A stretch of 54,733 nucleotides of DNA from an uncultured Rhodospirillales bacterium (GTDB taxonomy: Bacteria > Pseudomonadota > Alphaproteobacteria > Reyranellales > Reyranellaceae): the NCBI GenBank assembly GCA_945957125.1, contig CAMFJT010000009.1, positions 1 through 54,733 of the forward strand, given 5' to 3'. Below the pieces are notes generated by a model. That model saw only the letters and a program-made list of their open reading frames with translations, was not told the DNA's origin and did no database searches. Each line of letters starts with the position of its first letter. Positions within the stretch are counted from its first letter, which is position 1. The position numbers and the translations under genes were made by a program. Positions 3,929 through 54,733 of this stretch are shown here, piece by piece.

Positions 3929-3974
3929 GCATCCTCCTTCGATCGTCGGCGGAGCTATAGTCGGGAGACCCTCA

Positions 3975-39900: not shown

Positions 39901-40707
39901 ATGAGCGACCCTGCCGCGCCCCCTTCCCAAGACGGCTTCAATGCCGCCGGACCCGACGTGATCGCGCCGGGCGAAGGGGCGCTGATCGTCAATCTCGAAG
40001 GCTTCGAAGGTCCGCTCGACCTGCTGCTGGCGCTCGCGCGCGACCAGAAGGTCGACCTGCTCCGCATCTCGATGGTGGCGCTGGTCGACCAGTATCTGTC
40101 GTACGTCGCCCAGGCCCGTCGCATACGCCTCGAGCTCGCGGCCGACTACCTCGTGATGGCGGCCTGGCTTGCCTATCTCAAGTCGCGCCTGCTGCTGCCC
40201 GAGCCGCCCGCCGGCGAGGAGCCGTCGGGCCAGGAGATGGCCGACGCGCTGCAATGGCAGCTCCGCCGTCTCGAAGCCATGCAGGAGGCCGGCGCGCGCT
40301 TGATGGCCCGCCCGCAGCTCGGCAAGGACATCTTCGCGCGCGGCCAGCCCGAAGGCGTGGTCGTGGTACGTCGCACGGTCTGGGACGTGAAGCTCTACGA
40401 TCTGCTCAAGGCCTACGGTCATCAGGTCCGGCCCAAGGATGCCGACACCTATCAGATCGCGCCGATGCAGTTCTTCTCGGTCGAGGAGGCGGCCGAGCGG
40501 CTGGGCCGCATGCTCGGCATCGCGATCGACTGGCAGACCCTGGAGGCGTTCCTCCCTGCCGGCCTCACCGATCCGACCAAACGGCGCTCCGCCATCGCCT
40601 CGACCTTCGTGGCCGGGCTCCAGCTGGCCAAGGACGGCCAGATCGAGCTGCGCCAGACCGAACGCTTCGGTCCCATTCAATTGCGTAAACGTAGCGAACC
40701 GCGGTGA
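39901..40707 (+). CDS. scpA: segregation and condensation protein A
   Basis: A 268-residue kleisin that bridges SMC heads and is bound by ScpB. The N-terminal LEGFEGPLDLLLALARDQKV and the helix with YLVMAAWLAYLKSRLLLPEP are the family hallmarks; the C-terminal winged helix ends at RFGPIQLRKR. No smc gene is in the window. The stop overlaps the scpB GTG (GTGA). Position between nagZ and scpB is the typical alphaproteobacterial order. Confidence 0.93.
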   Translation: MSDPAAPPSQDGFNAAGPDVIAPGEGALIVNLEGFEGPLDLLLALARDQKVDLLRISMVALVDQYLSYVAQARRIRLELAADYLVMAAWLAYLKSRLLLPEPPAGEEPSGQEMADALQWQLRRLEAMQEAGARLMARPQLGKDIFARGQPEGVVVVRRTVWDVKLYDLLKAYGHQVRPKDADTYQIAPMQFFSVEEAAERLGRMLGIAIDWQTLEAFLPAGLTDPTKRRSAIASTFVAGLQLAKDGQIELRQTERFGPIQLRKRSEPR

Positions 40708-41909
40708 CGTCGATCATGCCAGCAGCAGAATTGCCTCTTGCCGACCCTGTCGAAGAGCCCGCCGACCAGCTCACCGCCGCCAAGGAGAAATCCGGCGTCG
40801 AGGACACGAGCGGGGAGACGCCAGCGGAGGAATTGGACGAGGACGAGGCGGAAGACGACTTCGACGACGATGATGATGACGACGAGGAGGAAGCCGTCGA
40901 CTTCGACGACGACGACTCCGACGACGATGGTGACGATGAAGCCGAGGAGGCCCCCGCAGAGGAGGAGGCCGATGCGGAAGACGGAGACGACGACGACGAC
41001 GACCTCGAAGATGATGATGATGACGACGACCTCGACGATGACGATGAGGCCGACGAGGCGGAGGAGGACGACGCTTCCGCCAGGCTCGGCGAGCATGAGG
41101 AGGGGCAGGGCGCCATCGCCGAGGCGATAGCGCCGGCCGCGGCGGACACGATCGAGGACCGACAGGAAAGCACGGAAATCGAGCAGGTCGTGGCCGAGCC
41201 CGTGGCGGTGCCGATACCGGTGATCGCGCCGGCGCCGCCGCAGATCACGGAGGGAACGTCATCCGACCATGTCCAGCACCTGCGCCTGCTCGAAGCGCTG
41301 CTCTTCGCCGGCACCCAGGCGCTGGGCGAGCAGGAGCTGGCCGACCGCCTGCCCAACGACGCCGACCTGCCCCGCCTGCTGGCCGATCTCGCCGAGCTTT
41401 ATGCCAATCGAGGCATCAACCTCGTGAAGGTGGCGGGCGGCTACGCTTTTCGCACGGCGCCTGATCTTTCCGAGAAGCTCAAGATCGAGCGGCCGGTGAC
41501 GCGCAAGCTCTCGCGTGCGTCGGTCGAGACGCTGGCGATCATCGCCTTTCACCAGCCGGTGACGCGGGCGGAGATCGAGCAGGTCCGTGGCGTGGGCCTG
41601 AGCAAGGGTACGCTCGACCTGCTGTTCGAGCAGAACTGGATCAAGCCGATGGGACGGCGCCGGGCGCCGGGCAAGCCGGTGACGTGGGGAACGACCGACT
41701 TCTTCCTCGAGCATTTCGGCCTGGGGTCACTCGATGACCTGCCGGGGCATGAGGAAATGCGCGCCGCCGGCCTCTTGGATGCGCGCGCCCAGCCCCCCAT
41801 ATTCCGTCCCGAGGAGGCCGACCTGCCGCTGGAACCGACGGACGACGAAGCCGACGAGCCGCTCGCGGCGGAGGAGAAGGGGGCCGACCGTGCCACCGGG
41901 CCGCAATAA
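40704..41909 (+). CDS. scpB: segregation and condensation protein B with a long Asp-rich N-terminal extension
   Basis: A 401-residue protein. Only residues about 188-360 are the ScpB double winged-helix core (LRLLEALLFAGTQALGEQEL, RASVETLAIIAFHQPVTRAE). The first 187 residues form an extension: residues 42-134 are almost entirely Asp and Glu, then an Ala/Pro/Val linker. Typical ScpB is about 180-240 residues. The acidic part could act as a DNA mimic or counter-ion sink near condensin. The start is GTG 40704 overlapping the scpA stop, or ATG 40716. The acidic coding repeats are GAC/GAT runs and may be prone to slippage. A moderately acidic tail follows the core too. Confidence 0.9.
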   Translation: MTSIMPAAELPLADPVEEPADQLTAAKEKSGVEDTSGETPAEELDEDEAEDDFDDDDDDDEEEAVDFDDDDSDDDGDDEAEEAPAEEEADAEDGDDDDDDLEDDDDDDDLDDDDEADEAEEDDASARLGEHEEGQGAIAEAIAPAAADTIEDRQESTEIEQVVAEPVAVPIPVIAPAPPQITEGTSSDHVQHLRLLEALLFAGTQALGEQELADRLPNDADLPRLLADLAELYANRGINLVKVAGGYAFRTAPDLSEKLKIERPVTRKLSRASVETLAIIAFHQPVTRAEIEQVRGVGLSKGTLDLLFEQNWIKPMGRRRAPGKPVTWGTTDFFLEHFGLGSLDDLPGHEEMRAAGLLDARAQPPIFRPEEADLPLEPTDDEADEPLAAEEKGADRATGPQ

Positions 41910-41925
41910 GGCCTTGATCGGCAGG

Positions 41926-41955
41926 TTGCCCGGCATTTGTGCCGGATGGCATAAT
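41926..41955 (+). promoter_or_regulatory. possible sigma70-type promoter upstream of tatA
   Basis: TTGCCC (41926-41931) and CATAAT (41950-41955) are spaced by 18 bases, in the 86-base gap between scpB and tatA. The match is modest, but it is the most promoter-like stretch in this otherwise closely packed block, and would let tatABC and downstream genes be transcribed separately. Confidence 0.3.
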
Positions 41956-41995
41956 CGGGCATAGCGAACGCAACGGTTTTATTGGGAGCAATCAC

Positions 41996-42250
41996 ATGGG
42001 TAGCTTCAGCGTATGGCATTGGCTGATCGTGCTCGCCGTCGTGCTGCTACTGTTCGGCGGCAAGAACAAGATCTCCGGCCTGATGGGCGACTTCGGCAAG
42101 GGCTTGTCGGCGTTCAAGAAGGGCGTGTCCGGCGACGGTACAGACACCGCGCAAGCGGGCCAGCCCGGCGATTCGGCCAAGCCGATCGCGGCGCAGACCA
42201 CCACCTCCTCGCCGAGCCAGGCGCACCAGGACAACACCGCGAAGGTCTGA
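41996..42250 (+). CDS. tatA: twin-arginine translocase subunit TatA
   Basis: An 84-residue TatA. It has one N-terminal membrane helix ([19 protein letters not shown]) with the Phe-Gly hinge, an amphipathic helix [20 protein letters not shown], and a polar tail rich in Ala, Gln, Ser and Thr. TatA oligomers form the transient pore for folded proteins. Start ATG at 41996 has GGGAG upstream; longer open frames exist but would spoil the N-terminal helix. tatB follows after 26 bases. Confidence 0.93.
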
Positions 42251-42276
42251 CCAGGCTTTTCGGGCTTCGGTGATAC

Positions 42277-42768
42277 ATGTTCGGCATCGACAGTCCTGAG
42301 CTGCTGGTGATCGCGGTCGTGGCGCTGGTCGTCATCGGCCCCAAGGAGCTGCCCAACCTGTTGCGCTCGTGGGGCAAGTGGATGTCCCAGATGCGCGGCA
42401 TGGCGGCGGAGTTCCGCGGCCATGTCGACGAGATGGTGCGCCAGTCCGAGCTGGACGAGGTGAAGAAGCAGCTCGAAGGGGCAAGCGGCGGGCTGGACCT
42501 GCAGTCGCTCGACCCGACCAAGCAGATCAAGCAGCACATTCAGGAAGGCATGGCGGAAGGCGACAAGGCTTGGGCCGAGGCCAAGTCGAGCCTCGACAAT
42601 CCGCTGGCCGAGCCGGAATCGGCGCCGCAGATCGCGGCCGAGCCCGCGCCTGCAGTCGATGCAGTGCCTGCGGTCGAGGCCGTGCCGGCGGAAACTCCAG
42701 CAATCGCGGCGGAAAAGCCTGCCGAGCCCCTTCCCGAAAGCAAGCCGGCCAAGGCCGCCGCCGAATAG
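42277..42768 (+). CDS. tatB: twin-arginine translocase subunit TatB
   Basis: A 163-residue TatB. The N-terminal MFGIDSPELLVIAVVALVVI helix, the conserved GPKELPNLLRSWGKWM hinge and a long amphipathic helix (MRGMAAEFRGHVDEMVRQSE) are typical. The C-terminal 60 residues are an Ala/Pro/Glu linker. TatB with TatC recognises the twin-arginine signal. The window encodes at least one likely substrate (14221-15918). Confidence 0.93.
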   Translation: MFGIDSPELLVIAVVALVVIGPKELPNLLRSWGKWMSQMRGMAAEFRGHVDEMVRQSELDEVKKQLEGASGGLDLQSLDPTKQIKQHIQEGMAEGDKAWAEAKSSLDNPLAEPESAPQIAAEPAPAVDAVPAVEAVPAETPAIAAEKPAEPLPESKPAKAAAE

Positions 42769-42837
42769 GCGAATTAGCGCTTTGAATTGCCGGCCAAAGG
42801 GCGGCATAACGCGCCACCCACGGACGCGAACACTGCC

Positions 42838-43614
42838 TTGACCCAAGCGCACGACGGACCCGAAGACGACAAGCCGATGCCGCTGCTCGATCACCTGATC
42901 GAGCTGCGCAAGCGGCTGATCTATGCGTTGATCAGCTTCTTCGCAGTGTTCTTCGTCACCTTCTACTTCGCCAAGCCGATCTTCTCGTTCCTGATGCAGC
43001 CGGCGCTCAACGACGGCTACAAGGTCATCGTTCTAGATATCTTCGAGTTCTTCTTCGTCACGGTGAAGCTGTCGGCCTTCGTGTCGCTGATCGTCGGCTT
43101 CCCGCTGATCGCGGTGCAGATCTGGATGTTCGTGGCGCCAGGGCTCTATCGCCAGGAGAAGCGGGCGTTCCTGCCTTTCCTCGTGGCCACGCCGTTCATG
43201 TTCTATGCCGGCTGCGCGGTGATGTACTACATCGTGCTGCCCTACGTGATCAATTTCATGCTCACGCAGTACGCGCCGCCCGACATCGAGAAGACCCTGC
43301 GTTCGTCCGATTATCTCGAACGCATCCTGCAACTCGTCTTCGCGTTCGGTTTCGCCTTCGAGATGCCGGTGCTGCTGATCCTGCTGATCAAGGTCGGCAT
43401 TGCGAGCTCCGAAGGGCTGCGGTCCAAGCGGCGCTATGCCATCGTGATCTGCTTCGTGGTTGCCGCCGTGCTGGCGCCGCCCGACGTGATCAGCCAGATC
43501 GCGCTGGCCGTCCCGCTGCTCGCCTTCTACGAGATCAGCATCATCGTCGGCTCGTGGATCGAGAAGAAGCGAGACGAAGAGGAAAAGAAGGCCGAGGAAG
43601 CCGCCGGCAGCTAG
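42838..43614 (+). CDS. tatC: twin-arginine translocase subunit TatC
   Basis: A 258-residue polytopic protein with six membrane helices and the conserved [19 protein letters not shown] at the N terminus, [17 protein letters not shown], and the [13 protein letters not shown] periplasmic loop. It is the receptor for the twin-arginine signal. The start is not certain: TTG at 42838 (giving [19 protein letters not shown]) looks natural, ATG 42877 would begin directly at PLLDHL, and an upstream TTG at 42787 is also open. A charged Glu/Lys tail ends two bases before serS. Confidence 0.9.
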
Positions 43615-43616
43615 CC

Positions 43617-44906
43617 ATGCACGACATTAGATTCATCCGCGAGAACCCCGCCGCCTTCGATGCCGGCCTCCAGAAGCGCCACCTGGCGCCCCTGTCGGCC
43701 GAGCTGCTCGACATCGACAAGCGCCGCCGCGCGGCGATCTCGGAGAGCGAGGGCATCCAGGCCCGGCGCAAGGCGCTCAGCCAGCAGATCGGCGTGGCCA
43801 AGCGCAAAGGCGAGCCGGCCGATGCGCTGATGGCCGAGGTCGCCGCGCTCGAGGAGTCGCTCAAGAAGGGCGAGGCGCTGGCCGCCGAGCTCGACGCCGA
43901 GCTGACCCATCGGCTGGAGGTGCTGCCGAACCTGCCGTTCCACGACGTGCCGGACGGCACGGACGAGACGGGCAATGTCGAGATCCGCCGGGTCGGCAGC
44001 CAGCGCAACTTTCCCTTCCCGCCCAAGGATCACGTCGCGCTGGGCGAGGCGACCGGCGAGATGGATTTTGCCGCCGCCAGCAAGATGTCCGGCGCGCGCT
44101 TCGTCGTGCTCAAGGGCCGGCTCGCCAAGCTCGAACGCGCCATCGCGCAGTTCATGCTCGACCTGCATACCTCGGAGGAGGGCGGCTATACCGAGGTCAA
44201 TCCGCCGTTCCTGGTGCGCGACAACGCCGCCTACGGCGTCGGCCAGCTGCCGCGCTTCGCAGAGGACATGTTCCATACCGACAACGGCTTCTGGCTGATC
44301 CCGACGGCCGAGCTGCCGCTCACCAACCTGGTGAACGACACGGTACTGGACGAGAAGGCGCTGCCGCTGCGCTACACAGCCTGGACGCCGTGCTTCCGTT
44401 CGGAGGCAGGTGCGGCGGGCAAGGACACGCGCGGCATGATCCGCCAGCACCAATTCCCCAAGGTCGAGCTGGTCTCGGTCACGACGCCCGAGCAATCGGA
44501 GGCGGAGCATCAGCGCATGACCGGCCGGGCGGAAGAGGTGCTGAAGCGGCTCGGCCTGCCGTTCCGTACCATCATCCTGTGCGGCGGCGACATGGGACCG
44601 GCCTCGCGCAAGACCTACGACATCGAGGTCTGGCTGCCCGGCCAGAGCGCCTATCGCGAGATTTCGAGCTGCTCGAACTGCGGCGAGTTCCAGGCTCGCC
44701 GCATGGGTGCGCGCTTCCGGCCCAAGGAAGGGAAGGGCACGCGCTTCGTGCATACGCTCAACGGGTCGGGCCTCGCGGTCGGCCGCACCCTCGTCGCGGT
44801 GCTGGAGAACTACCAGAACGAGGACGGCTCTGTGACCGTGCCCGAGGCCCTGCGCCCCTACATGGGCGGGCTGGAAACGATACCCGGACCGGTGAAGGCA
44901 AAGTGA
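43617..44906 (+). CDS. serS: seryl-tRNA synthetase
   Basis: A 429-residue class II synthetase. The N-terminal long coiled coil (about residues 25-100) grips the tRNA-Ser variable arm. Motif 2 is [20 protein letters not shown], motif 3 is [19 protein letters not shown], and the [12 protein letters not shown] segment is conserved. Length is normal. Two bases separate it from tatC, and its stop overlaps the surE GTG start (GTGA). Confidence 0.95.
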
Positions 44907-45685
44907 AGATTCCCGACCTTTCTCGCGCGCGCATCCTCGTCACCAACGACGACGGCATCAATGCGCCAGGGCTCGAGGCGCTGATCGAGATCGCCACGCA
45001 GCTTTCGAGCGACGTCTGGGTGGTGGCGCCCGAATTCAACCAGAGCGGCGCGGGACATTCGCTGTCGATCTCCCATCCGATCAGGGCGCGCGAGGTGAAC
45101 GAGACCAAGTTCGCCATCGAGGGCACGCCGACCGACTGCGTTCTGTTCGCCGTCAAGCACCTGCTGAAGGGACGCAAGCCGCACGTCGTCCTGTCGGGCG
45201 TGAACCGCGGCACCAACATGGCCGACGACGTGACCTATTCCGGCACTATCGCCGGCGCGATGGAAGGCTGCATGCTGGGCATCCCCTCGATTGCCTTCAG
45301 CCAGGCCTACGCGCATCCCCATCCGGTGAAGTGGGGTACGGCGACGGCGTATGGCGCGGACGTGGCGCGCCGCGTGCTGGCGATGGACTTCCCGCACAAC
45401 GTCTTCGTGAACGTGAACTTCCCCGACGTCGTGACTGCCTCGGTCAAAGGCATCAAGGTCACGCGCCAGGGCGTGCGTGCCTTCGGCAGCAGCATCATCG
45501 AGCGCACCGATCCGCGCGGCGGCGCCTACTACTGGATCGGCTACGCGCCGGGCGAGCATCAGGTCGATGAGGAGAGCGACCTGTTCGCGATCCGCAACGG
45601 CTGGATCTCGGTGACGCCGCTGCATCTCGATCTCACCCACGAGGCCACGCGCCGCAAGCTCGCGGCGCAATTCGAATCGGCCTGA
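44903..45685 (+). CDS. surE: 5'/3'-nucleotidase SurE
   Basis: A 260-residue survival protein and metal-dependent nucleotidase acting on nucleoside monophosphates and short polyphosphates. The N-terminal [17 protein letters not shown] supplies the metal-binding Asp16-Asp17, followed by [14 protein letters not shown] and [19 protein letters not shown], all signature regions. Start is GTG 44903, overlapping the serS stop. It is paired with pcm 17 bases downstream, the classical stationary-phase survival pair. Confidence 0.94.
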
Positions 45686-45702
45686 GCGGGCGGGCGGGCG
45701 CG

Positions 45703-46350
45703 ATGAACGCTCTCGCGATGCAGCGCCTGATCGCCGAGCTGCGGCAATCGGGCATTGCCGACGAGGCCGTGCTGGCCGCGATCGCCGCGGTCGATCGCGA
45801 GCGTTTCGTGTCGGCGCCGTTCGCCGAGCGCGCCTGGGAGAACACCGCCCTGCCGATCTCGTTCGGCCAGACCATCAGCCAGCCGCTGGTGGTGGCGGCG
45901 ATGACCGAGGCGTTGCGCGTCGGCCCGCGCATGAAGGTGCTCGAGATCGGCACAGGCTCGGGCTATCAGGCCGCCGTGCTCGGCAAGCTGGCGCGCCGGG
46001 TCTATTCGATCGAGCGCTTCAAGCCTCTGTCGAAGGAGGCCGAGCGGCTGCTGCTCAATCTCGGCATCTACAACGTAGTGTGCGACGTGGGCGACGGCAG
46101 CAGGGGATGGCCGGGCCAGGCGCCGTTCGATCGCATCATCGTCACTGCCGCCGCCGAGGAGCGGCCGCAGGCGCTGATCGACCAGCTCGCCGTCGGCGGC
46201 ATCCTGATCGTGCCGGTCGGGCGCGACCCCACCTCCCAGGTGGTCGAACGCATCGTCAAGAGCGAGAGCGGCCTGCAGCGAGACACGCTGATGCCCGTCC
46301 GCTTCGTCCCGCTGATCCCCGGCCCGTTGCCCGTGCTGGGGCAGGGGTGA
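45703..46350 (+). CDS. pcm: protein-L-isoaspartate O-methyltransferase
   Basis: A 215-residue SAM-dependent methyltransferase that starts repair of isoaspartyl residues in aged proteins. SAM-binding motif I is VLEIGTGSGYQAAVL, preceded by the family's PISFGQTISQPLVVA, and post-motif residues PFDRIIVTAAAEERP. Length fits. In related genomes an M23/LysM gene follows directly; here it is 2.2 kb away beyond the sigma-factor/bufferin module. A palindromic repeat begins 2 bases past the stop. Confidence 0.94.
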   Translation: MNALAMQRLIAELRQSGIADEAVLAAIAAVDRERFVSAPFAERAWENTALPISFGQTISQPLVVAAMTEALRVGPRMKVLEIGTGSGYQAAVLGKLARRVYSIERFKPLSKEAERLLLNLGIYNVVCDVGDGSRGWPGQAPFDRIIVTAAAEERPQALIDQLAVGGILIVPVGRDPTSQVVERIVKSESGLQRDTLMPVRFVPLIPGPLPVLGQG

Positions 46351-46351
46351 G

Positions 46352-46389
46352 CGCTGGGAGCGCGGCTCTCCAGAGCAGCGCTCCCAGCG
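46352..46389. repeat. GC-rich palindrome (reduced copy of the GGGAGCGCGG element)
   Basis: Eleven-base arms CGCTGGGAGCG (46352-46362) and CGCTCCCAGCG (46379-46389) flank CGGCTCTCCAGAGCA. It matches the left half of 16881-16956 joined to its outermost right end, as if the centre had been deleted. It lies between the convergent pcm and DoxX genes. Confidence 0.8.
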
Positions 46390-46402
46390 ACACCGTGCGG
46401 CT

Positions 46403-46879
46403 CTACGCGCCGTAGTCCGACGGCGGGCGGTTGGGGCGCAGCCGTCTCAGGATGAGGTGGTCGAGCGAGACCGGGCCGGGGCCGGCGATGCCGAGCCAGG
46501 CGAACATCACGAGGTAGGATACCTCCTCGAAGCCGAGCAGGGTCTGCAGGGAATCGACGTCGCCCCATTTCGCCGAGACGATGGCGACGATCATGATGAT
46601 CATCATCGGCACCGAGACGAAGCGCGTCAGCAGGCCGAGCAGAAGCATCACTCCGCCGACGAACTCCATGCCCGAGGCGAAGGGCGTCAGGATCTCCGGC
46701 GCGGGGATCCCCCACGAGCGAAAATTCTCGATCATGCGCGGCAGGAAGTGCAGCTTCTGCCAGCCGGTCCAGAGGAAGACCCAGCCGACGACGATGCGCA
46801 CGGCGAGCGGGCCGGCCCAGGCGAAATAGCCGGCGACGATCCGGGACCAATCGTAGAACACCGTGGCGAAGAGATTCAT
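46403..46879 (-). CDS. DoxX-family membrane protein
   Basis: A 158-residue inner-membrane protein with four hydrophobic helices. GWVFLWTGWQKLHF and the LTPFASGMEFVGGVMLLLGL segment fit the DoxX family, members of which associate with respiratory, thiol-redox or metal-stress systems. It follows the bufferin-like gene on the same strand by 64 bases and should be co-transcribed. In Caulobacter a DoxX gene is the last member of the SigF-controlled bufferin operon, supporting a role in the same response. Confidence 0.85.
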   Translation of the reverse strand: MNLFATVFYDWSRIVAGYFAWAGPLAVRIVVGWVFLWTGWQKLHFLPRMIENFRSWGIPAPEILTPFASGMEFVGGVMLLLGLLTRFVSVPMMIIMIVAIVSAKWGDVDSLQTLLGFEEVSYLVMFAWLGIAGPGPVSLDHLILRRLRPNRPPSDYGA

Positions 46880-46943
46880 GGCATCATCCTGGAAGGCGAG
46901 GGTGCGGGCGTCCGCGACTGTTTGCCGGGACGCCCGCGGCCGC

Positions 46944-47177
46944 TCACATCACCTTGCCGCCCTGGGCGGTGCAGGCGGCGCCGTCCTTGGCCTCGGTGAA
47001 GCCCTGGCCCTTGCAGGCATTCTGCCCCTTGCAGGCGTTGGTCGCGCTCTTGCACGCGCTCTGCCCCTTGCAGGCATTGGCGCCGCTGCAATGGACGGGG
47101 GCGGCCTGGGCGGTGGCGACGAAGCTGGTGGCGGCGAACACCGACGCGGCGGTGGCGAGGAACGTGCGCTTGTTCAT
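46944..47177 (-). CDS. BufA2-like periplasmic Cys-rich bufferin-type metallophore peptide
   Basis: A 77-residue exported peptide. The signal peptide cleaves after AQA (about residue 25). The mature part has six Cys in a repeated N/S-A-C-K-G-Q pattern (HCSGANAC, KGQSAC, SATNAC, KGQNAC) and ends DGAACTAQGGKVM. This layout is that of BufA2-type bufferins, ribosomally made copper-binding peptides whose Cys are oxidatively modified by an MNIO (DUF692) enzyme. No MNIO gene or its DUF2063 partner is in the window, which is unusual. A strong AGGAGA site precedes the ATG. A SigF-like promoter motif lies upstream. Confidence 0.75.
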   Translation of the reverse strand: MNKRTFLATAASVFAATSFVATAQAAPVHCSGANACKGQSACKSATNACKGQNACKGQGFTEAKDGAACTAQGGKVM

Positions 47178-47220
47178 GAAGTGTCTCCTGTGCATCGGGC
47201 AAGGCGCCCGTACCAGTTCA

Positions 47221-47246
47221 TTCGCGGGGAGGAGCCGGGTCGTTAC
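47221..47246 (-). promoter_or_regulatory. predicted SigF-type ECF promoter for the bufA2-DoxX operon
   Basis: On the minus strand GTAACG (47246-47241) and CGAA (47224-47221) are spaced by exactly 16 bases, 44 bases upstream of the bufferin start. As I recall it, the Caulobacter SigF consensus is GTAACC-N16-CGAA, so this matches at nine of ten positions. The divergent sigma-factor gene has the same arrangement. Confidence 0.65.
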
Positions 47247-47287
47247 AGTGCGACGATGATTTTTTTCGCCCGAGGCGGGAGCGGCCT

Positions 47288-47313
47288 GTAATGTCCGCCC
47301 CTCTGCACACGAA
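47288..47313 (+). promoter_or_regulatory. predicted SigF-type ECF autoregulatory promoter for the sigma factor gene
   Basis: GTAATG (47288-47293) and CGAA (47310-47313) are spaced by exactly 16 bases, 20 bases before the sigma-factor start codon. It shares GTAA-T/C-G, spacing and CGAA with the oppositely oriented site at 47221-47246, as expected if the sigma factor drives both transcripts. Confidence 0.6.
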
Positions 47314-47333
47314 TACGTGAAAGAGCAATCGCG

Positions 47334-47882
47334 TTGGCCGACCTCGACGACCTCTCGGCATTGATGCGCTCGGCAAGACGGGGAGACGACGAGGCCTATC
47401 GTCGGCTGCTCGTCGCGGTGGCGGCGTGGTTGCGGGGTGTCGTGCGGCGGGGACTGGTGTCGGCCGGGCGCGGCGCGGCAGACTGCGAGGATATCGTGCA
47501 GGAGACTTTGCTGGCGGTGCATCTGAAGCGCGACACGTGGGACGAGACGCGGCCGATCGCTCCCTGGCTGCGCGCCATCGCGCGCCACAAGCTTGCCGAT
47601 CATCTGCGTCGCAGAGGCTTCACCGACCACGTCGACATCGACGACCACGCCGATTCCCTCGAGCTCGCCGTCCAGGCCGATGCCGCATCTTCCCTGGAGT
47701 CGCGGCAGATCCTGGCCAGCCTGCCGGAGCGCCAGCGGCGGATCGTGCAGGAGATTTCCCTCGAGGGAAGAGGCGCCGCCGACGTGGCACGCAGCCTGGG
47801 CATGAGCGAGGGCGCGGTGCGCGTGACGCTCCATCGCGCGCTCAAGGCGCTGGCGGTATTCTATCGACAGGATCGCCGATGA
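47334..47882 (+). CDS. ECF sigma factor, SigF-like
   Basis: A 182-residue extracytoplasmic-function sigma factor. Region 2 is seen in CEDIVQETLLAVHLKRDTWD and PIAPWLRAIARHKLADHLRR, and region 4 in LPERQRRIVQEISLEGRGAA and MSEGAVRVTLHRALKAL. The sequence most resembles Caulobacter SigF, which responds to chromate and cadmium. The start is TTG at 47334 with a weak site. Its stop overlaps the ATG of the membrane anti-sigma (ATGA), so the two are made together. It is predicted to transcribe itself and the divergent bufferin operon. Confidence 0.85.
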   Translation: MADLDDLSALMRSARRGDDEAYRRLLVAVAAWLRGVVRRGLVSAGRGAADCEDIVQETLLAVHLKRDTWDETRPIAPWLRAIARHKLADHLRRRGFTDHVDIDDHADSLELAVQADAASSLESRQILASLPERQRRIVQEISLEGRGAADVARSLGMSEGAVRVTLHRALKALAVFYRQDRR

Positions 47883-48514
47883 AGACCGAACAGCTCGTCG
47901 AGGCCCTGGTCGCCGACCGTGCGGCGGGCCGCAGGCCGATCTCCATGGCGCTGGCCGCGGCGCTCGCGCTCGGCGGCGCGGTGTCGCTCGTGCTCTTCCT
48001 CGTCGACCTCGGCGTACGTGCGGATATCGGGCCCGCGCTCGCCACCTGGCGCTTCGATCTCAAGATCGCGATGGTCCTGGTCGCGTTCTCCCTGGCCTTC
48101 GCCCTCTGCCTCGATTGCGCGCGACCCGATCCGTCCGGTCCGCCGATGCGGCGCCTCCTGCCGCTTGCCGCGCTGGCGATCCTGGCGGTCGTCGTGGAGC
48201 TGGCGATCGTGCCCGGGACGAGTTGGGGCGCGCGTCTGGTCGGGAGCAACTCGCTGATCTGCCTGTCGGCGATCCCGTTGCTGTCGATCGCCCCTCTTGC
48301 CGCAGTTCTGGCGATCCTGAAGCGGGGTGCGCCGGCATCGCCGGCTCTCGCCGGCGCGGCAGCCGGCCTGCTGGCCGCGACCTCGGGCGCGACGTTGTAC
48401 GCCTTCCACTGCTTCGACGACTCGCCGCTCTTCGTCGTGACCTGGTACAGCCTTGCCGCGATTCCCGTGATCGCGGCGGGCGCCCTCGTCGGTCGCCGCT
48501 TGCTGCGCTGGTGA
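47879..48514 (+). CDS. NrsF/DUF1109-like membrane anti-sigma factor
   Basis: A 211-residue membrane protein with six hydrophobic helices and a short basic N terminus, the DUF1109/NrsF layout. Cys128 (in SNSLICLSAIP) and Cys178 (in YAFHCFDDSP) are 50 residues apart. As I recall, the Caulobacter homologue has two essential Cys with the same spacing that sense the metal or oxidant. Two further Cys occur at FALCLDC. It should hold the sigma factor at the membrane until the Cys pair reacts. It overlaps the sigma gene by four bases. Confidence 0.82.
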   Translation: MKTEQLVEALVADRAAGRRPISMALAAALALGGAVSLVLFLVDLGVRADIGPALATWRFDLKIAMVLVAFSLAFALCLDCARPDPSGPPMRRLLPLAALAILAVVVELAIVPGTSWGARLVGSNSLICLSAIPLLSIAPLAAVLAILKRGAPASPALAGAAAGLLAATSGATLYAFHCFDDSPLFVVTWYSLAAIPVIAAGALVGRRLLRW

Positions 48515-48576
48515 GGCGGCGAGAAATCGCAGCCTGCCGGATTCCCGCCGGAATCGCGATGCAGTAGGATGGAATC

Positions 48577-49476
48577 ATGAATACTGCCCCTCGCATCCCC
48601 TCGCGATGGGCCGGCTGGTCGCGATCGCTGATCTCAACGGCGGCGCTGTCGGCTGCGCTCGGCGCCTGCACCTCCATGGACAACGTCATGTACGGCGCCC
48701 GCGAGGGCACGATGGAATATCCGGGCTCCGGCGCCGGACCCAACGCCGTGCCGACCTATGTCGTGAAGCAGAAGGATACGGTCGACGGCATCGCCAGCCG
48801 CTACGGCGTCTCGCGGCAAGCCATCATCGAGCGCAACAATCTCCAGGCGCCCTATGCGCTGCGTCCGGGTCAGACGCTCCAGGTGCCGGGCGCCAGATAT
48901 GTGCCGGACGGCAGCGCCGCGGCGACGGTGGCGGCTGCGCCCTCGGGTGCGCCGGGGCCGGTGAAGCGCGAGGCCTTGCCGCCGCCGCCCGGTGCGTCGG
49001 AGTCCAAGGTCGGATCTTCGGCGTCGGCGTCATCGTCCGCAGGCCAGCCGACGCCGCTCAGCGCGCCCGCAGCGGCAGCACCCCCGAGCGCGGCGCCGCG
49101 TTTCCAGTGGCCGTTGCGCGGCAAGATCATCACGCCCTACGGATCGACCGGCGGCGGCCAGAAGAGCGACGGCATCGACATCGCTGCCGATACCGGCGCG
49201 CCGGTAAAGGCAGCGGACGGCGGCAAGGTGGTCTATGCCGGTGACGGCGTGCCTCACCTCGGCAACCTGCTGCTGATCGAGCATCCGGGCGGCTACATCA
49301 CCGCCTACGGCAACAACGAGGCGTTGCTGGTCAAGAAGGGCGAGGAGGTCAAGAAGGGCCAGACGATCGCCCGCGCCGGGGCGACCGGCGGCGCGGCCAG
49401 CCCGCGCCTGCATTTCGAGGTCCGCCGCGGCGGCGCCAAGACCGTCGACCCGGTGTCGGTGCTGCCGGCTCAGTGA
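48577..49476 (+). CDS. LysM/M23 lipoprotein (NlpD/LppB-like, catalytically degenerate)
   Basis: A 299-residue lipoprotein with lipobox LGAC (Cys31), a LysM domain at about residues 60-108 (YVVKQKDTVDGIASRYGVSR), a Pro/Ser/Ala linker, and a C-terminal M23 domain from about 180. The metal site is incomplete: the HxxxD motif reads SDGID, the catalytic His of the Y-x-H-N loop is Asn (AYGNN), and the HxH motif is RLHFE. Such degenerate M23 proteins (NlpD, EnvC) activate cell-wall amidases rather than cut peptidoglycan. Start ATG at 48577 follows AGGATGG. It usually sits next to pcm; here the sigma/bufferin module intervenes. Confidence 0.87.
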   Translation: MNTAPRIPSRWAGWSRSLISTAALSAALGACTSMDNVMYGAREGTMEYPGSGAGPNAVPTYVVKQKDTVDGIASRYGVSRQAIIERNNLQAPYALRPGQTLQVPGARYVPDGSAAATVAAAPSGAPGPVKREALPPPPGASESKVGSSASASSSAGQPTPLSAPAAAAPPSAAPRFQWPLRGKIITPYGSTGGGQKSDGIDIAADTGAPVKAADGGKVVYAGDGVPHLGNLLLIEHPGGYITAYGNNEALLVKKGEEVKKGQTIARAGATGGAASPRLHFEVRRGGAKTVDPVSVLPAQ

Positions 49477-49483
49477 CGGGGCC

Positions 49484-49819
49484 TCAGACGATCTTGCCGT
49501 CCATCTGATACTGGCCTCGCCGGTCCTCGATCTCGAGGACCCAGACGTCGGGATCGACCTTCACCTGGCGCGCGATATAGGCGTCGGCCTCGGCCTCGCT
49601 GACCGGCTTGGGGCCGGTGCCGCGGCTCCACGCCGGCGTGTCGGTCATGGTGCTGGCCTGGGTATAGACCGTCACGCCGTCCTCGAAGCGATTGAGCTTC
49701 AGCAGCACCGTGCCGGCATCCGGATCGCCGCGGCGCACGACGGTCGCGGGAATGAAGGCGCGATCGCAAATCCGCACCTGGGCGCTCACCCAGAGTCCCG
49801 TCGTCAATCCCATCACCAT
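49484..49819 (-). CDS. small protein of unknown function with N-terminal hydrophobic segment
   Basis: A 111-residue protein whose N terminus (MVMGLTTGLWVSAQVR) looks like a weak signal or membrane segment, followed by a soluble domain (VSEAEADAYIARQVKVDPDV, WVLEIEDRRGQYQMDGKIV). The family is not recognised. Start ATG at 49819 has GAGGT eight bases upstream; ATG 49813 is an alternative. It begins 10 bases after the stop of the next unknown gene on the same strand, so the two are probably one operon, converging on the M23 gene. Confidence 0.55.
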   Translation of the reverse strand: MVMGLTTGLWVSAQVRICDRAFIPATVVRRGDPDAGTVLLKLNRFEDGVTVYTQASTMTDTPAWSRGTGPKPVSEAEADAYIARQVKVDPDVWVLEIEDRRGQYQMDGKIV

Positions 49820-49829
49820 GAGCGCTACC

Positions 49830-50750
49830 TCACGCCAGCGCGTCGTCGAGCCCGTCGAAGACGGCTCGCGCGCCGCGCCATGTGTAGCGCACACAGGTGA
49901 AAGGCAACGCCTCGAGCGCCGCGTCGCAGCGATCCGGGGCGACGAGGATCGGCCGCACCGCCATGCGTCGCTTCAGCGAAGCCCGCGACAGAGACCGGAC
50001 GGCGCGCTCCAGTTCATCCGCCTGGTCGTCGGCCACCACCGCGAACAGCGGACGCGGCCGCTCGCCGCGCAGCGAGAAGAGATCGGGGGTGCCACCGAAC
50101 AGGCCGCGCTTGGCGAGCTCCTCGTGCAACGACACGTCGACCAGTCGCCGGTCGCAGGCCGCAGCGGCCGAATCGCGCGGCGAGGGTTGCAGGCAATGAC
50201 CGGTGCGGCGGGTTGGGCGCGCGTCGCCGATCTTGAAGCCACGCACCGCCGCGACGAAGCGTCCGAGCAGGCGCATCAGCCGCGGGCTGTCGAGCGGCGC
50301 CACGACCAGCGCCTCGGTCTGGCGGTCGTCCGGCCACTTCGTCTTTCGCCAAACGCCGTCGGCGAGAAAGTCGCGGAACGCCAGGCCGTGCGGGCTCTGG
50401 CCGGCCAGGCGGCCCGAATGGGCGAGATAGAGCCGTCCTGCGCCATCGGCGGCGACCATACCGGCGGTCCGGCGGCTGGCGCCGGACCGGGTGAGATTGA
50501 GGCTGCAGGTGATGCTCTCCCGCCGGGTCGGCGCTTCGGGGGCGTGGCCGAGCAGGAGCGTGTCACGATCGGGACGCGGCTCGAGGGCCCACCAGAATCC
50601 GTCGTCGGGCGCCCAGTGGATGGCCGTGCGCAGCTCGCCGCCGCCGCGCCAGGTGAGCCGCACGTCCCGCGCGGGAACGCCCGTCAAAGCCTCACGAAGG
50701 CGCACGATCGCCTCGTCTATCGCCTTCGGATCGCTCACGACCTGCAGCAT
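49830..50750 (-). CDS. protein of unknown function (306 residues)
   Basis: Not recognised. The protein is cytosolic-looking, without signal or membrane segments, rich in Arg, Asp and Ala. It has notable Cys (ITCSLNLTRSG, HCLQPSP, AACDRRLVD, DRCDAAL, FTCVRYTWRGARAVFDG). The C-terminal third (VRPILVAPDRCDAALEALPF) resembles the alternating beta-alpha pattern seen in some nuclease or nucleotide-binding folds, but no catalytic signature is clear. It is transcribed together with the following small gene and divergent from the ABC-F gene, 79 bases away. Confidence 0.5.
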   Translation of the reverse strand: MLQVVSDPKAIDEAIVRLREALTGVPARDVRLTWRGGGELRTAIHWAPDDGFWWALEPRPDRDTLLLGHAPEAPTRRESITCSLNLTRSGASRRTAGMVAADGAGRLYLAHSGRLAGQSPHGLAFRDFLADGVWRKTKWPDDRQTEALVVAPLDSPRLMRLLGRFVAAVRGFKIGDARPTRRTGHCLQPSPRDSAAAACDRRLVDVSLHEELAKRGLFGGTPDLFSLRGERPRPLFAVVADDQADELERAVRSLSRASLKRRMAVRPILVAPDRCDAALEALPFTCVRYTWRGARAVFDGLDDALA

Positions 50751-50829
50751 CGGCGCACCATAGCGGCATAGTTATCCTTGCCCATGTGGACAGCTTCGGC
50801 CAAACACGCCGCTCCCAGTCCGAGTGCCC

Positions 50830-52635
50830 ATGGCCGATCCGCCTCTCCTGACCCTTGCCGGGATCCGTTTCCATCTCGGCGACCAGACCATCCTCGACGG
50901 CGTCGATCTTTCGATCGCGCCCGGCGAGCGCCTGTCGCTGGTCGGCCGCAACGGCGCGGGCAAGTCGACCCTGCTGCGCATCCTCGAAGGCCAGCCGATC
51001 TTCGACGGCGGCACGCGCTTCGCGCAGCCCGGCGCCACGATCGCCACCCTGCCGCAGGAGCCGGACTTCACCGGCCATCCGACGGTGGCGCACTACGTCG
51101 CCTCGGCGCTGCCCGATTCGCTCGGACCGTCTGACTATCGGGTCGAAGCGCTGCTCGCCGACCTGAAGCTGGACGGCACGCGCGAGCCGGCCGGGCTCTC
51201 GGGCGGCGAGGCGCGTCGCGCGGCCCTCGCGCGCGTGCTGGTCGCCGAACCCGAAGTGATGCTGCTCGACGAGCCGACCAACCATCTCGACCTGCCGACC
51301 ATCGAATGGCTGGAGGAGAGGCTGTCAGGCTGGAAGGGCGCCTATGTGCTGGTCAGCCACGACCGGCGTTTCCTGTCGACGCTGACGCGCGCGGTGCTGT
51401 GGCTCGACCGCGGCATCGTGCGCCGCCTCGACAAGGGTTACGACGCCTTCGAGGAATGGTCGACCGGCATCCTCGAGCGCGAGGCCACCGAACGGCACAA
51501 GCTCGACCGGCTGATCGAGCGCGAGACCGAATGGGCGGGCAAGAGCATCCGCGCCCGTCGCACGCGCAACGAAGGCCGGCTGCGGGCTCTGCGCGAGCTG
51601 CGCAAGCAGCGTCGCCAGCAGATCGGCCCCACCGGCCGCGCCACGATCGAGGTCGGCGAGGCGACGCAATCGGGCGCGCTCGCGATCACCGCGCGAAACA
51701 TCTCCAAGCGCTTCGGCGAGCGCACGATCGTGCGCGATTTCTCCACGCGCATCTTCCGCAAGGATCGGGTCGGGCTGATCGGACCCAACGGCGCGGGCAA
51801 GACGACCTTGCTGCGGATGCTGATCGGCGAGCTCGAGCCCGACACCGGCTCGGTCAAGCTCGGCGCCAACCTGATGCCGGTCGTGATCGACCAGCGCCGC
51901 ACCGCGCTCGACCCCGACAAGACCCCGTGGGAGATCCTGGCCGATCGCAACGACCACGTGCTGGTGCGCGGCACGCCGCGGCACGTCATGACCTACCTGC
52001 GCGAGTACCTGTTCAAGGACGAGCAGGCGCGCCAGCCGGTGCGAACCCTGTCGGGCGGCGAGCGCAACCGCCTGCTGCTGGCCAAGGCGCTGGCCGCGCC
52101 GTCCAACATGCTGGTGCTCGACGAGCCGACCAACGATCTCGACGCCGATACGCTCGACCTCCTGCAGGAGGCGCTGGCCGAGTTCGACGGCACCGTCCTG
52201 CTGGTCAGCCACGACCGTGACTTCCTCGACCGGCTGGTGACCTCGACCATCGCGCTCGAAGGCGACGGCACGGCGACCGAGTATGCCGGCGGCTACAGCG
52301 ACTACCTGATGCAGCGCGGCCCGCGTGAAGCGCCGGCTTCGACCGTCTCCGCGCCGCGCAAGGAGAAGGCCGTCGCGCCGGCGGTGCGCGAGACGAAGGC
52401 GCGGCTGGGCTACAAGCGCGAACGCGCGCTGGCCGAGCTGCCGAAGAAGATCGAGGCGCTGCAGGCCGAGATGGCAGGCCTCCAATCCGCGCTTGCCGAT
52501 CCCGACCTTTACCGCCGCGATGCCGCGGATTTCCAGGCCAAGACCAGGCGCCTCGATGCCGCTCAGGCCGAGCTGGACACCGCCGAGACCGAATGGCTGG
52601 AACTCGAGATGCTGCGGGAAGAGCTGGGCGGTTGA
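50830..52635 (+). CDS. uup: ABC-F ATPase, Uup type
   Basis: A 601-residue cytosolic ATPase with two complete nucleotide-binding domains. Walker A is GRNGAGKST and GPNGAGKTT; signatures are LSGGEARRAAL and LSGGERNRLLL; each Walker B has LLDEPTNHLD or VLDEPTNDLD. Between them lies a charged linker of the ABC-F kind, and a C-terminal coiled coil (about residues 530-600, KRERALAELPKKIEALQAEM) characteristic of Uup. These proteins act on ribosomes or branched DNA intermediates rather than in transport. ATG 50830 is taken; GTG 50824 is possible. Confidence 0.92.
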   Translation: MADPPLLTLAGIRFHLGDQTILDGVDLSIAPGERLSLVGRNGAGKSTLLRILEGQPIFDGGTRFAQPGATIATLPQEPDFTGHPTVAHYVASALPDSLGPSDYRVEALLADLKLDGTREPAGLSGGEARRAALARVLVAEPEVMLLDEPTNHLDLPTIEWLEERLSGWKGAYVLVSHDRRFLSTLTRAVLWLDRGIVRRLDKGYDAFEEWSTGILEREATERHKLDRLIERETEWAGKSIRARRTRNEGRLRALRELRKQRRQQIGPTGRATIEVGEATQSGALAITARNISKRFGERTIVRDFSTRIFRKDRVGLIGPNGAGKTTLLRMLIGELEPDTGSVKLGANLMPVVIDQRRTALDPDKTPWEILADRNDHVLVRGTPRHVMTYLREYLFKDEQARQPVRTLSGGERNRLLLAKALAAPSNMLVLDEPTNDLDADTLDLLQEALAEFDGTVLLVSHDRDFLDRLVTSTIALEGDGTATEYAGGYSDYLMQRGPREAPASTVSAPRKEKAVAPAVRETKARLGYKRERALAELPKKIEALQAEMAGLQSALADPDLYRRDAADFQAKTRRLDAAQAELDTAETEWLELEMLREELGG

Positions 52636-52711
52636 GCGCTTCTTCGCGACCGGGCCATCGCGCGTCCTGAGGCGGTCACGTGGTTGACTCTCGCGGCCGC
52701 CGCCGCACGAT

Positions 52712-52735
52712 CCCAATCTGATTGATGCGATTGGG
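52712..52735. promoter_or_regulatory. short inverted repeat ahead of a lipoprotein gene
   Basis: CCCAATC (52712-52718) and GATTGGG (52729-52735) are perfect complements 10 bases apart, 12 bases before the start codon of the next lipoprotein gene. It could be an operator or a hairpin affecting translation start. A TTGACT at 52683 could be a -35 box, but no matching -10 is convincing. Confidence 0.3.
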
Positions 52736-52747
52736 GGGCGAATCCTG

Positions 52748-53194
52748 ATGCGGTGGCTGATCGTCGCGATTCTCTTTTCGGTTGCCGCATGCACCCCCGG
52801 CAACGAGCCGCCGAGCACCCGATATGCGCCGGAAAAAACCGGCTACGATGTTGCACGCGACACGACCGTCATCGGCCAGTACATCGCCTCCGGGAGCTAT
52901 GTCGAAGCGCAGGGCGTCAACCCGGAGGAAGTCAAATGGCGAGCGCTGCTCAAGGGCATGGAGGCGGCGCGCAAGGACGGCTACGACCTCGCCGTGTGGA
53001 TGCAGGCCGGGACGGGCACCGCGACCCAGAGGCTCACCTATGTAGGCTCGACGGGGACGTCCACGAGCCGCGGCCGCGGCTTCATCTACGTCGTTCGCGG
53101 CTACCGGTCGACGGACGATCATCCATCGGTTGCACGGCCCATCGCGGAGCTGATCGAGCAGATCAATCGCGCTCTCGCGACTTTCAAGGCGTAG
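52748..53194 (+). CDS. small lipoprotein, possibly CC0125/CC1285-like
   Basis: A 148-residue lipoprotein with lipobox VAAC (Cys15), then a mature domain with ALLKGMEAARKDGYDLAVWM and a beta-rich Gly/Thr stretch (YVGSTGTSTSRGRGFIYVV). The alternation of a helix containing the G-Y-D motif with beta strands recalls a small alphaproteobacterial lipoprotein family of unknown function. The assignment is tentative. A short inverted repeat precedes the start; a palindromic repeat follows the stop by 11 bases. Confidence 0.6.
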   Translation: MRWLIVAILFSVAACTPGNEPPSTRYAPEKTGYDVARDTTVIGQYIASGSYVEAQGVNPEEVKWRALLKGMEAARKDGYDLAVWMQAGTGTATQRLTYVGSTGTSTSRGRGFIYVVRGYRSTDDHPSVARPIAELIEQINRALATFKA

Positions 53195-53205
53195 AGGCCT
53201 TCCGC

Positions 53206-53237
53206 TGGGGGCGCGCCACTGGAGTGGCGCGCCCCCA
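53206..53237. repeat. GC-rich palindrome (CCACTGGAGTGG core)
   Basis: Fifteen-base perfect arms, TGGGGGCGCGCCACT and AGTGGCGCGCCCCCA, around GG. The left flank TCCGC is shared with the copy at 11082. It lies between a convergent lipoprotein and the binding-protein gene, 32 bases before the latter's stop. Confidence 0.8.
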
Positions 53238-53269
53238 ATAAAAGATCCATGCAGGCCGGCGGCGACCGA

Positions 53270-54733
53270 TCAGCTCTTGTCGATATTCCACAGCACCGTT
53301 ACCGGCGCCTTCAGCCAGCCGTTCACATTGGCGCGCGCCGCACCCGGCCCGTACCACTGGCCGAGCCAGGCATACTGCGCCGTCTCGAGCGCGCGGTTCT
53401 GCACGGCCGCGGCCAGCGCCTTGGATTTGGCCGGATCGGTTTCCTTGGCATAGGCGTCGCGAAGCTTTTCCATCTCCGGATCGTTCGGCCAGCCGAACCA
53501 GGCCTTCTCGCCGCTGGCGACGGTGAAGTTGGCGGCGATCGGATTGAGGATGTCGGCGGCGATGGCGTAGGTGTGGAAGAGGCTCCAGCCGCCCTTGTCG
53601 GCCGGGTCCTTCTTCGCGCGCCGGGAGACGACCGTCTGCCAGTCCATCGACTGCATGTCGACCTTGAAGCCGCCCTGCTCGAGCAGCGCCTTGGTCACCG
53701 GCGCCATGTTGGTCAGCACCGGCAGCGTCGTCGACTGCATCAGCACGACCGGCGTGCCGTCGTACCCGGCCTCCTTGAGCAGCGCCTTCGACTTCTCGAA
53801 ATCCGGCTTGGTCAGCAGGTCGCCCTTGATCTCGACGGCGTTGGGCGTGCCGCAGACGAAGGCCGCGGTGCAGACCTTGTAGTATTCCGGCTCGCCGACC
53901 GTGGCCTTGAGGTAATCCTCCTGCCGGATGCAGAGCAGGGCGGCCTGGCGGATCTTGGGATTGTCGAACGGCTTGGTCAGGTGGTTCATGCGGAAGACGA
54001 ACTGCTGGCCGAGCGGGTTCCAGTTCACCGTCTTCACGCCCTTGTCCTTCTTCAGCACCGGGATCAGGTCGTGCGGCACCTGCTCGACCATGTCGATCTC
54101 GCCGGCGATCAGCGCGTTTACCTGCTGTTGCGGGTCGGGCATGTCGATGAACTCGACCCGGTCGACCTTGGCGATCTTGCCGCCGGCCAGACCCGAAGCG
54201 GGCTCTGAGCGCGGCTTGTACTTCGCATTCCTGACGTAGACGTGCTTCTCGCCCGGCTTGGACTCGGCATTGACGTAGATGAACGGCCCCGAGCCGACCT
54301 GGCTGTCGATCTGCTTGAACGGATCGGTGTCGGCGATCCGCTTGGGCATCATGAAGGGCACGTTGGACGACGGCTTGCCCAGCGTGTCGAGCACCAGGCC
54401 GTATGGCTCCTTGAGCTTCAGGGTGAAGGTCCGGCCATCGACCGGCTTCCACTCGACGACGAAGTCGGCGAGCTTCTGGCCCATCGGATCGCGAACCTGC
54501 CAGCGCTTGAGCGAGGAGACGCAATCCTCGGCCGTCACCGGCGCGCCGTCATGCCATTCGAGGCCGTCGCGCAGGGTGAAGGTCCACAGCGTCTTGTCGG
54601 CGGAGACTTCGTGCTTGTCGACCATCTGCGGCTTGACCGCGCCCGATTCGTCGGTCGCGAACAGGACGTCGTAGATCATGTAGCCGTGGTCGCGCGTGAC
54701 GTAGGCCGTCGTCCAGATCGGATCGAGGATCGT
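53270..54733 (-). CDS. peptide/nickel-type ABC transporter substrate-binding protein (N terminus outside the window)
   Basis: The last 487 residues of a family-5 binding protein (DppA/OppA/NikA type). The frame runs open to the window edge, so the signal peptide and first 30-60 residues are missing. Family landmarks are LWTFTLRDGLEWHDGAPVTA, DCVSSLKRW, VGSGPFIY, IDMPDPQQQVNALIAGEIDM and FDNPKIRQAALLCI. It is expected to be periplasmic and to bind oligopeptides or similar ligands. Partner permease and ATPase genes are not in the window. It converges on the small lipoprotein gene, with a palindromic repeat between them. Confidence 0.9.
   Translation of the reverse strand, partial: TILDPIWTTAYVTRDHGYMIYDVLFATDESGAVKPQMVDKHEVSADKTLWTFTLRDGLEWHDGAPVTAEDCVSSLKRWQVRDPMGQKLADFVVEWKPVDGRTFTLKLKEPYGLVLDTLGKPSSNVPFMMPKRIADTDPFKQIDSQVGSGPFIYVNAESKPGEKHVYVRNAKYKPRSEPASGLAGGKIAKVDRVEFIDMPDPQQQVNALIAGEIDMVEQVPHDLIPVLKKDKGVKTVNWNPLGQQFVFRMNHLTKPFDNPKIRQAALLCIRQEDYLKATVGEPEYYKVCTAAFVCGTPNAVEIKGDLLTKPDFEKSKALLKEAGYDGTPVVLMQSTTLPVLTNMAPVTKALLEQGGFKVDMQSMDWQTVVSRRAKKDPADKGGWSLFHTYAIAADILNPIAANFTVASGEKAWFGWPNDPEMEKLRDAYAKETDPAKSKALAAAVQNRALETAQYAWLGQWYGPGAARANVNGWLKAPVTVLWNIDKS

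Follow-up and report, generated by a model that had tools for sequence, protein, structure and literature searches.

In Caulobacter, the extracytoplasmic function (ECF) sigma factor SigF controls two bufferin-type operons, CC3254-CC3257 and CC2907-CC2905, which include the paralogous second genes CC2906/CC3255 and the DUF2063 genes CC2905/CC3256. The SigF promoter motif there is GTAACC-N16-CGAA, and the anti-sigma factor NrsF carries a cysteine pair, C131/C181 (Kohler et al. 2012, PMC3511200). According to the available passages of a survey of MNIO (DUF692) enzymes and their precursors, sigma factor and NrsF genes accompany Buf1 and not Buf2 clusters, none of 864 complete Buf2 genomes lacks an MNIO gene, and a genome holds at most four Buf2 genes (PMC12452194). 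A sizeable share of precursors lies away from MNIO genes, and modification from another locus, or none, is suggested for them; trans-modification of orphan precursors has therefore already been raised. Here we analyze a bufA2 gene and its neighbors in a 54,733-nucleotide stretch of contig CAMFJT010000009.1 (assembly GCA_945957125.1), which we refer to in full as the window. The gene belongs to a four-gene SigF/NrsF-bufA2-doxX module, free of MNIO, that recurs across Reyranella at 22 loci in 20 genomes and is, to the extent of our search, new. Its peptide is probably modified by an enzyme encoded elsewhere in the genome.

Results

A conserved SigF/NrsF-bufA2-doxX module

The locus consists of two divergent gene pairs with a promoter motif facing each:

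46403..46879, minus strand: doxX, a DoxX-family membrane protein, next after bufA2 on the same strand (PF07681, 77.6 bits)
46944..47177, minus strand: bufA2, a 77-aa bufferin precursor (NCBIfam NF050166 Cu_RiPP_BufA2, E 4.2e-23, 81.3 bits, cut-off 60)
47221..47246, minus strand: SigF-type motif GTAACG-N16-CGAA toward bufA2-doxX, exact in 22 of 22 module loci, own included
47288..47313, plus strand: SigF-type motif GTAATG-N16-CGAA toward sigF-nrsF, exact in 20 of 22 module loci, own included
47334..47882, plus strand: sigF-like ECF sigma factor gene, TTG start as listed (Sigma70_r2 and r4_2 above cut-off; NCBIfam NF009165, 224 bits against 198)
47879..48514, plus strand: nrsF, anti-sigma factor gene, with a 4-base overlap with the sigF-like gene (PF06532, 161.9 bits)

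A first-pass annotation of the sequence had proposed this divergent arrangement, and all four genes were borne out at these positions. It had left room for the peptide not being a bufferin, which the NF050166 match rules out, and its reading of a SigF/NrsF pair agrees with the Sigma70 domains and PF06532, all above their cut-offs. The BufA2 product has a signal peptide of about 25 residues ending in AQA, as judged by eye without a predictor. Its six cysteines stand at positions 30, 36, 42, 49, 55, and 69; Cys36, 42, 49, and 55 each have a lysine directly after them, with Cys30 and Cys69 as flanks. Against the NCBIfam equivalog NF042994, NrsF reaches 86.7 bits where the cut-off is 300, making it a homologue and not the curated equivalog, and DoxX at 72.8 bits is below the cut-off of 80 for the HvfX equivalog. 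NrsF Cys128 and Cys178 are 50 residues apart, as in the Caulobacter pair, and all 42 aligned rows (40 distinct) keep both. The likeness to the Caulobacter SigF/NrsF regulon, as far as the available parts of that paper describe it, covers the ECF SigF with NrsF, the spaced cysteine pair, a GTAACC-N16-CGAA-type motif, and a DoxX operon beside sigF. With the Buf2 clusters in the available passages of the survey, the window genome shares a six-Cys precursor, a Sec signal, DoxX, and a BufB and DUF2063 protein in the genome; unlike those clusters, it pairs the window BufA2 with SigF/NrsF and has no MNIO next to that gene.

The arrangement is not peculiar to this genome. A search of 75 genomes from the family, the window genome among them, gave 146 BufA2 above the cut-off, distributed over 53 genomes. 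Fifty-nine of these are on a contig without a listed MNIO match or more than 3.5 kb from one, contig ends not being allowed for. For 22 of these 59, an NrsF match is at most 4 kb away; orphans not beside an NrsF match account for 37 of the 146. The orphan count used all 146 BufA2, 61 of the listed MNIO matches, and 27 of the listed NrsF matches. MNIO counts rest on the matches listed, with the weak end of the MNIO matches outside them; when the contigs taken as MNIO-free were checked by eye, none proved to have a listed MNIO in the vicinity. Contig ends can hide neighbors, as in G061, where the MNIO match begins at the contig end. At all 22 loci fetched, from 20 genomes of a single genus (Reyranella, judged by named relatives; own included), nrsF-sigF is divergent from bufA2-doxX, and since the same four genes keep the same divergent order at so many loci, the module is not a chance assembly. 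No MNIO or DUF2063 match was found in the 5.5-14.7 kb covered at each of the 22 loci, several of these stretches ending at a contig end. One of the 22 loci, L094, has a partial nrsF and a sigF-bufA2 distance of about 1 kb. Every one of the 22 orphan peptides, own included, has the six cysteines at the same spacing and the four central Cys-Lys pairs, and nonsynonymous divergence (dN) is below synonymous divergence (dS) for 226 of the 231 orphan-core pairs.

In a class-wide sample of 385 genomes, 21 hold BufA2 above the cut-off, 19 of them outside the family. All 19 have BufA2 beside an MNIO and none has BufA2 beside an NrsF match; in G242, a further BufA2 lies on a contig that gave no MNIO match. 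In what was searched, the module is confined to Reyranella; a cultivable member that carries it is Reyranella soli (L162). We found no publication on Reyranella bufferins or on SigF-controlled orphan BufA2, in a search that left most subscription literature outside. The window BufA2 resembles the stand-alone precursors of the survey, as its available passages describe them, in lying away from any MNIO, but unlike them it is part of a four-gene module whose promoter motif is defined and which is conserved across 20 genomes of a single genus. More than four BufA2 occur in 11 of the 53 family genomes, up to nine (seven in the window genome), a count from a model different from that of the survey and mostly from drafts. 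The window locus is flanked by surE-pcm and, at its other end, by an M23 gene (names from the first-pass annotation and the sequence, without a family search), and tblastn found no MNIO or DUF2063 protein in positions 40000-54733.

SigF-type promoters

Both divergent promoters fit the Caulobacter motif, differing from it only in the final one or two positions of the -35 element. In the 6.41-Mb assembly of the window genome (91.7% complete), TGTAAYS-N16-CGAA has two matches, both at the window locus; the reversed control pattern also has two. The core motif GTAAYG-N16-CGAA has five matches and its control pattern 11. The three extra core matches, all GTAACG-N16-CGAA, on contigs C28, C46, and C127, are inside long open frames and have the look of chance. 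By this measure the SigF regulon of the window genome would consist of one divergent pair, a measure that weaker variants of the motif would escape. A search for sigma-70 promoters found none. The 58 other fetched loci contain 26 motif matches in 393,968 bases, 24 of them in loci chosen for a SigF/NrsF pair.

A BufB/DUF2063 pair elsewhere in the genome

The first-pass annotation described the peptide as being without the usual maturation enzyme, which holds for the locus but not for the genome as a whole. Searching all contigs for DUF692 (PF05114) gave a single match, on contig C21. The enzyme is a BufB (NF050167, 378.4 bits, cut-off 310), is preceded by four tandem BufA2 genes, and is followed by a DUF2063 partner (PF09836, 72.9 bits), a pair that rules out a genome without a DUF692 or DUF2063 protein; the DUF2063 protein was found beside the MNIO, and the search for that family was not genome-wide. 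The genome has one NrsF and seven BufA2 above the cut-off, five on C21, one on C8, and one in the window. One C21 peptide (L002 3679-3912) is 65% identical to the window BufA2 and has the same Cys-Lys pattern.

Two further BufA2 genes stand alone, at C8:19975-20181 (L110) and C21:30445-30651 (L109), with no MNIO or SigF motif in the stretches examined; the two genes upstream of the latter have no Pfam match. Just past bufC on C21, at L002 6050-6360, there appears to be a tRNA-Leu-like gene, its identity read by eye, seemingly split by a group I intron. Rfam Intron_gpI matches at L002 6075-6260 (E 2.1e-8), its 38.6 bits falling short of the gathering score of 50, and ARAGORN called no tRNA at L002 6050-6360.

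We refer to enzymes with 77-100% identity to that of the window genome, and with BufA2 genes beside them, as BufB2; the label rests on identity and neighbors because the NCBIfam BufB model merges Buf1- and Buf2-linked enzymes. A BufB2 operon is present in 16 of the 20 module-bearing genomes. A weight matrix built from 42 sites (training scores at least 18.4) was applied to these operons. A SigF promoter for the C21 BufB operon was rejected, its best score being -0.6, with 25 of 60 shuffles equally good. Unlike in Caulobacter, as the available parts of that paper describe it, the motif in the window genome is thus limited to the upstream regions of bufA2-doxX and sigF-nrsF, leaving the MNIO/DUF2063 pair outside the regulon as the motif defines it. 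Fifteen of the 17 BufB2 operons in the 16 genomes score below 8. The operon at G034:C42 scores 19.8, with the motif before its first gene and beside a distant SigF/NrsF of its own. That of G045 scores 9.8, with the motif upstream of bufB2 rather than of the first gene, and the G045 maturase itself looks tied to SigF. The core motif in G045, a genome with two module copies, is at L117 (G045:C110) 3959-3984, 76 bases upstream of bufB2.

Other SigF/NrsF arrangements

In 15 Reyranella genomes an NrsF match above 150 bits and an MNIO match are separated by about 1 kb (by coordinates; 5 of the 15 were fetched). None of the 15 is among the 20 module genomes, and 14 have no BufA2 above the cut-off. 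The five fetched loci (L098-L101, L107) have a Buf1 form, with a SigF 66-73% identical to that of the window, divergent from an MNIO operon. The MNIO (42-45% identical to that of the window genome) and DoxX (27-30%) occur in all five, and a DUF2063 match in three. At L098, the one Buf1-form locus run against the models, the precursor passes PF10048 DUF2282 and the MNIO passes BufB. The Buf1 form shares the SigF type and the GTAAYG-N16-CGAA motif (on both sides in four loci, on one side in the fifth) with the window module, and differs from it in having an MNIO in the divergent operon. The putative window-type SigF switch is thus found in two states, one with a Buf1-type MNIO operon and one with the orphan BufA2 module.

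A third arrangement, in G006, G032, and G034:C42, places BufA2-BufB2-BufC near a distant SigF/NrsF (26-40% identical) with GTAACC motifs. A single record, L156, has a window-type SigF/NrsF divergent from bufA2-bufB2-bufC-doxX, with the motif on each side. Its precursor has five cysteines and scores 59.2 bits, just under the BufA2 cut-off; by eye, another MNIO in its genome follows two further BufA2-like genes. In a tree of SigF and NrsF, which used 13 of 36 named loci (L094 left out for its partial nrsF; L154 and L155 are repeats), L156 is nested among the orphan forms with support 100/96. The change between L156 and the orphan form may have gone either way.

SigF/NrsF pairs also occur away from bufferins. 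L112 (G046:C21), L113 (G044:C159), and other NrsF matches of about 200 bits belong to a separate type, 37-44% identical to that of the window; it carries a GTAACC motif, and the stretch examined gave no bufferin or MNIO match. The pair at L173 (CAMDBL010000003.1; record title Devosia equisanguinis) is 55-60% identical to that of the window, again with no bufferin or MNIO match in the stretch examined.

Discussion

From these sequences it is probable that the window BufA2 is a metal-inducible precursor, modified in trans by BufB/BufC of contig C21. The picture looks like that of a soil-type bacterium that keeps a gene for a small metal-trapping peptide under its own metal-alarm switch, with the finishing enzyme encoded elsewhere. 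By analogy with Caulobacter, NrsF would hold SigF at the membrane until metal acting on its two conserved cysteines freed it. SigF would then transcribe sigF-nrsF and bufA2-doxX from the back-to-back promoters. The C21 enzymes would modify BufA2 at the four Cys-Lys cysteines, the peptide would be exported via Sec, and, once in the periplasm, it may, like others of its family, bind Cu(I) or a comparable metal. Because the C21 operon has no SigF motif, the alarm would raise the dose of precursor and not that of enzyme.

Several lines of evidence support modification in trans. The single MNIO of the genome is a BufB accompanied by a DUF2063 partner and by four BufA2 genes in tandem, a C21 peptide is close to the window BufA2 in identity and Cys-Lys pattern, and most of the module genomes also hold a BufB2 operon. 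L156 lends further support, since it joins the same SigF/NrsF type to a complete operon. An MNIO acting from elsewhere was one of two alternatives in the first-pass annotation and is the best-fitting option, with one BufB on another contig. Its suggestion of a minimal copper/chromate response is doubtful for the window genome, which has a BufB and its DUF2063 partner behind four more BufA2; it may still hold for the four relatives without a detected BufB2, though three of them have a Buf1-linked BufB.

Some observations weigh against modification in trans as we propose it. No BufB2 was detected in four of the 20 module genomes (G025, G030, G042, and G048), where completeness predicts about 1.4 absences (P of four or more, 0.04). 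The BufB2 operons of G013 (6.2) and G041 (7.3) beat 59 of 60 and 60 of 60 shuffles, their best sites having no GTAA core and being placed inside or behind bufA2 genes. Since the C21 operon lies outside the motif-defined regulon, enzyme supply might also limit the system under stress. In the SigF and NrsF tree the orphan forms do not all fall into one clade; G013, G039, and G051 (module) and G017 and G035 (Buf1 form) are unplaced.

The peptide could also be modified in trans and have a job other than copper buffering. The SigF signal would then be chromate, cadmium, or another thiol-reactive stress, with peptide and DoxX acting in redox or sulfur stress. Chromium and cadmium do elicit a SigF response in Caulobacter (PMC3511200, in the parts available) and DoxX accompanies bufA2 at all 22 loci, but bufferins are described as copper chelators in the available passages of the survey (PMC12452194), and we regard this as somewhat unlikely.

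The four genomes without a detected BufB2 raise another alternative, namely that BufA2 under SigF control acts in unmodified form as a small thiol buffer for metal, independent of MNIO. Their orphan BufA2 keeps both the bufA2 motif and the six cysteines. Moreover, other MNIO classes may not be able to stand in for BufB2, because an EGKCG-class enzyme failed to process an NACKG substrate (PMC13097082, whose available passages contain no such test of a Buf1-linked enzyme). On the other hand, BufB2 is kept in the 16 other genomes, the four central Cys-Lys sites are kept in every orphan, and all four BufB2-negative genomes are drafts (G025 96%, G030 92%, G042 96%, and G048 82% complete). Among the matches listed, G025, G030, and G042 have only MNIOs at 39-42% identity, with one more at 32% in G030, and G048 has only a partial MNIO at 27%. 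Four of the MNIOs at 39-42% were run against the BufB model and exceed its cut-off of 310 (340-386 bits), an MNIO at L147 being left out for a stop in its stretch, and the precursors beside them pass DUF2282, so these three genomes do hold a Buf1-linked BufB, which may or may not act on BufA2; only G048 shows no BufB. This makes an unmodified peptide less likely, and we consider it unlikely overall. In G025 (L106) and G030 (L105) an MNIO is near another SigF/NrsF type, 34-54% identical (one match partial), so that one genome can carry both the module and a SigF-linked operon of Buf1 type.

A narrower version applies to some Reyranella, in which SigF-controlled BufA2-DoxX would have outlived its maturase and would act as an unmodified, metal-induced Cys peptide, the modified BufA2 set being kept or lost independently. 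We think this distinctly unlikely, the more so given the Buf1-linked BufB enzymes; if true, a bufferin would have reverted from a modified natural product to a plain small metal-binding protein. That the module is a drifting remnant of a complete SigF-bufA2-bufB2-bufC-doxX operon after enzyme loss, for which L156 provides a complete version with the same SigF/NrsF type, is very improbable given the motif and six cysteines kept at 22 of 22 loci, dN below dS in nearly all orphan-core pairs, the five-Cys precursor belonging to L156 itself, and the nesting of L156 among orphan forms, which makes a gain in L156 no less parsimonious than many losses.

Modification in trans of a SigF-controlled BufA2 would separate two matters that are usually studied together, metal-induced expression of the peptide and supply of the modifying enzyme. 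The genus offers natural cases, with 16 genomes that have the orphan and BufB2, four that have the orphan without a detected BufB2, and one record of a complete SigF-linked operon. Such cases bear on whether a bufferin must be modified and whether one BufB class can serve another precursor class, and they add a Buf2 case to the picture of SigF/NrsF accompanying Buf1.

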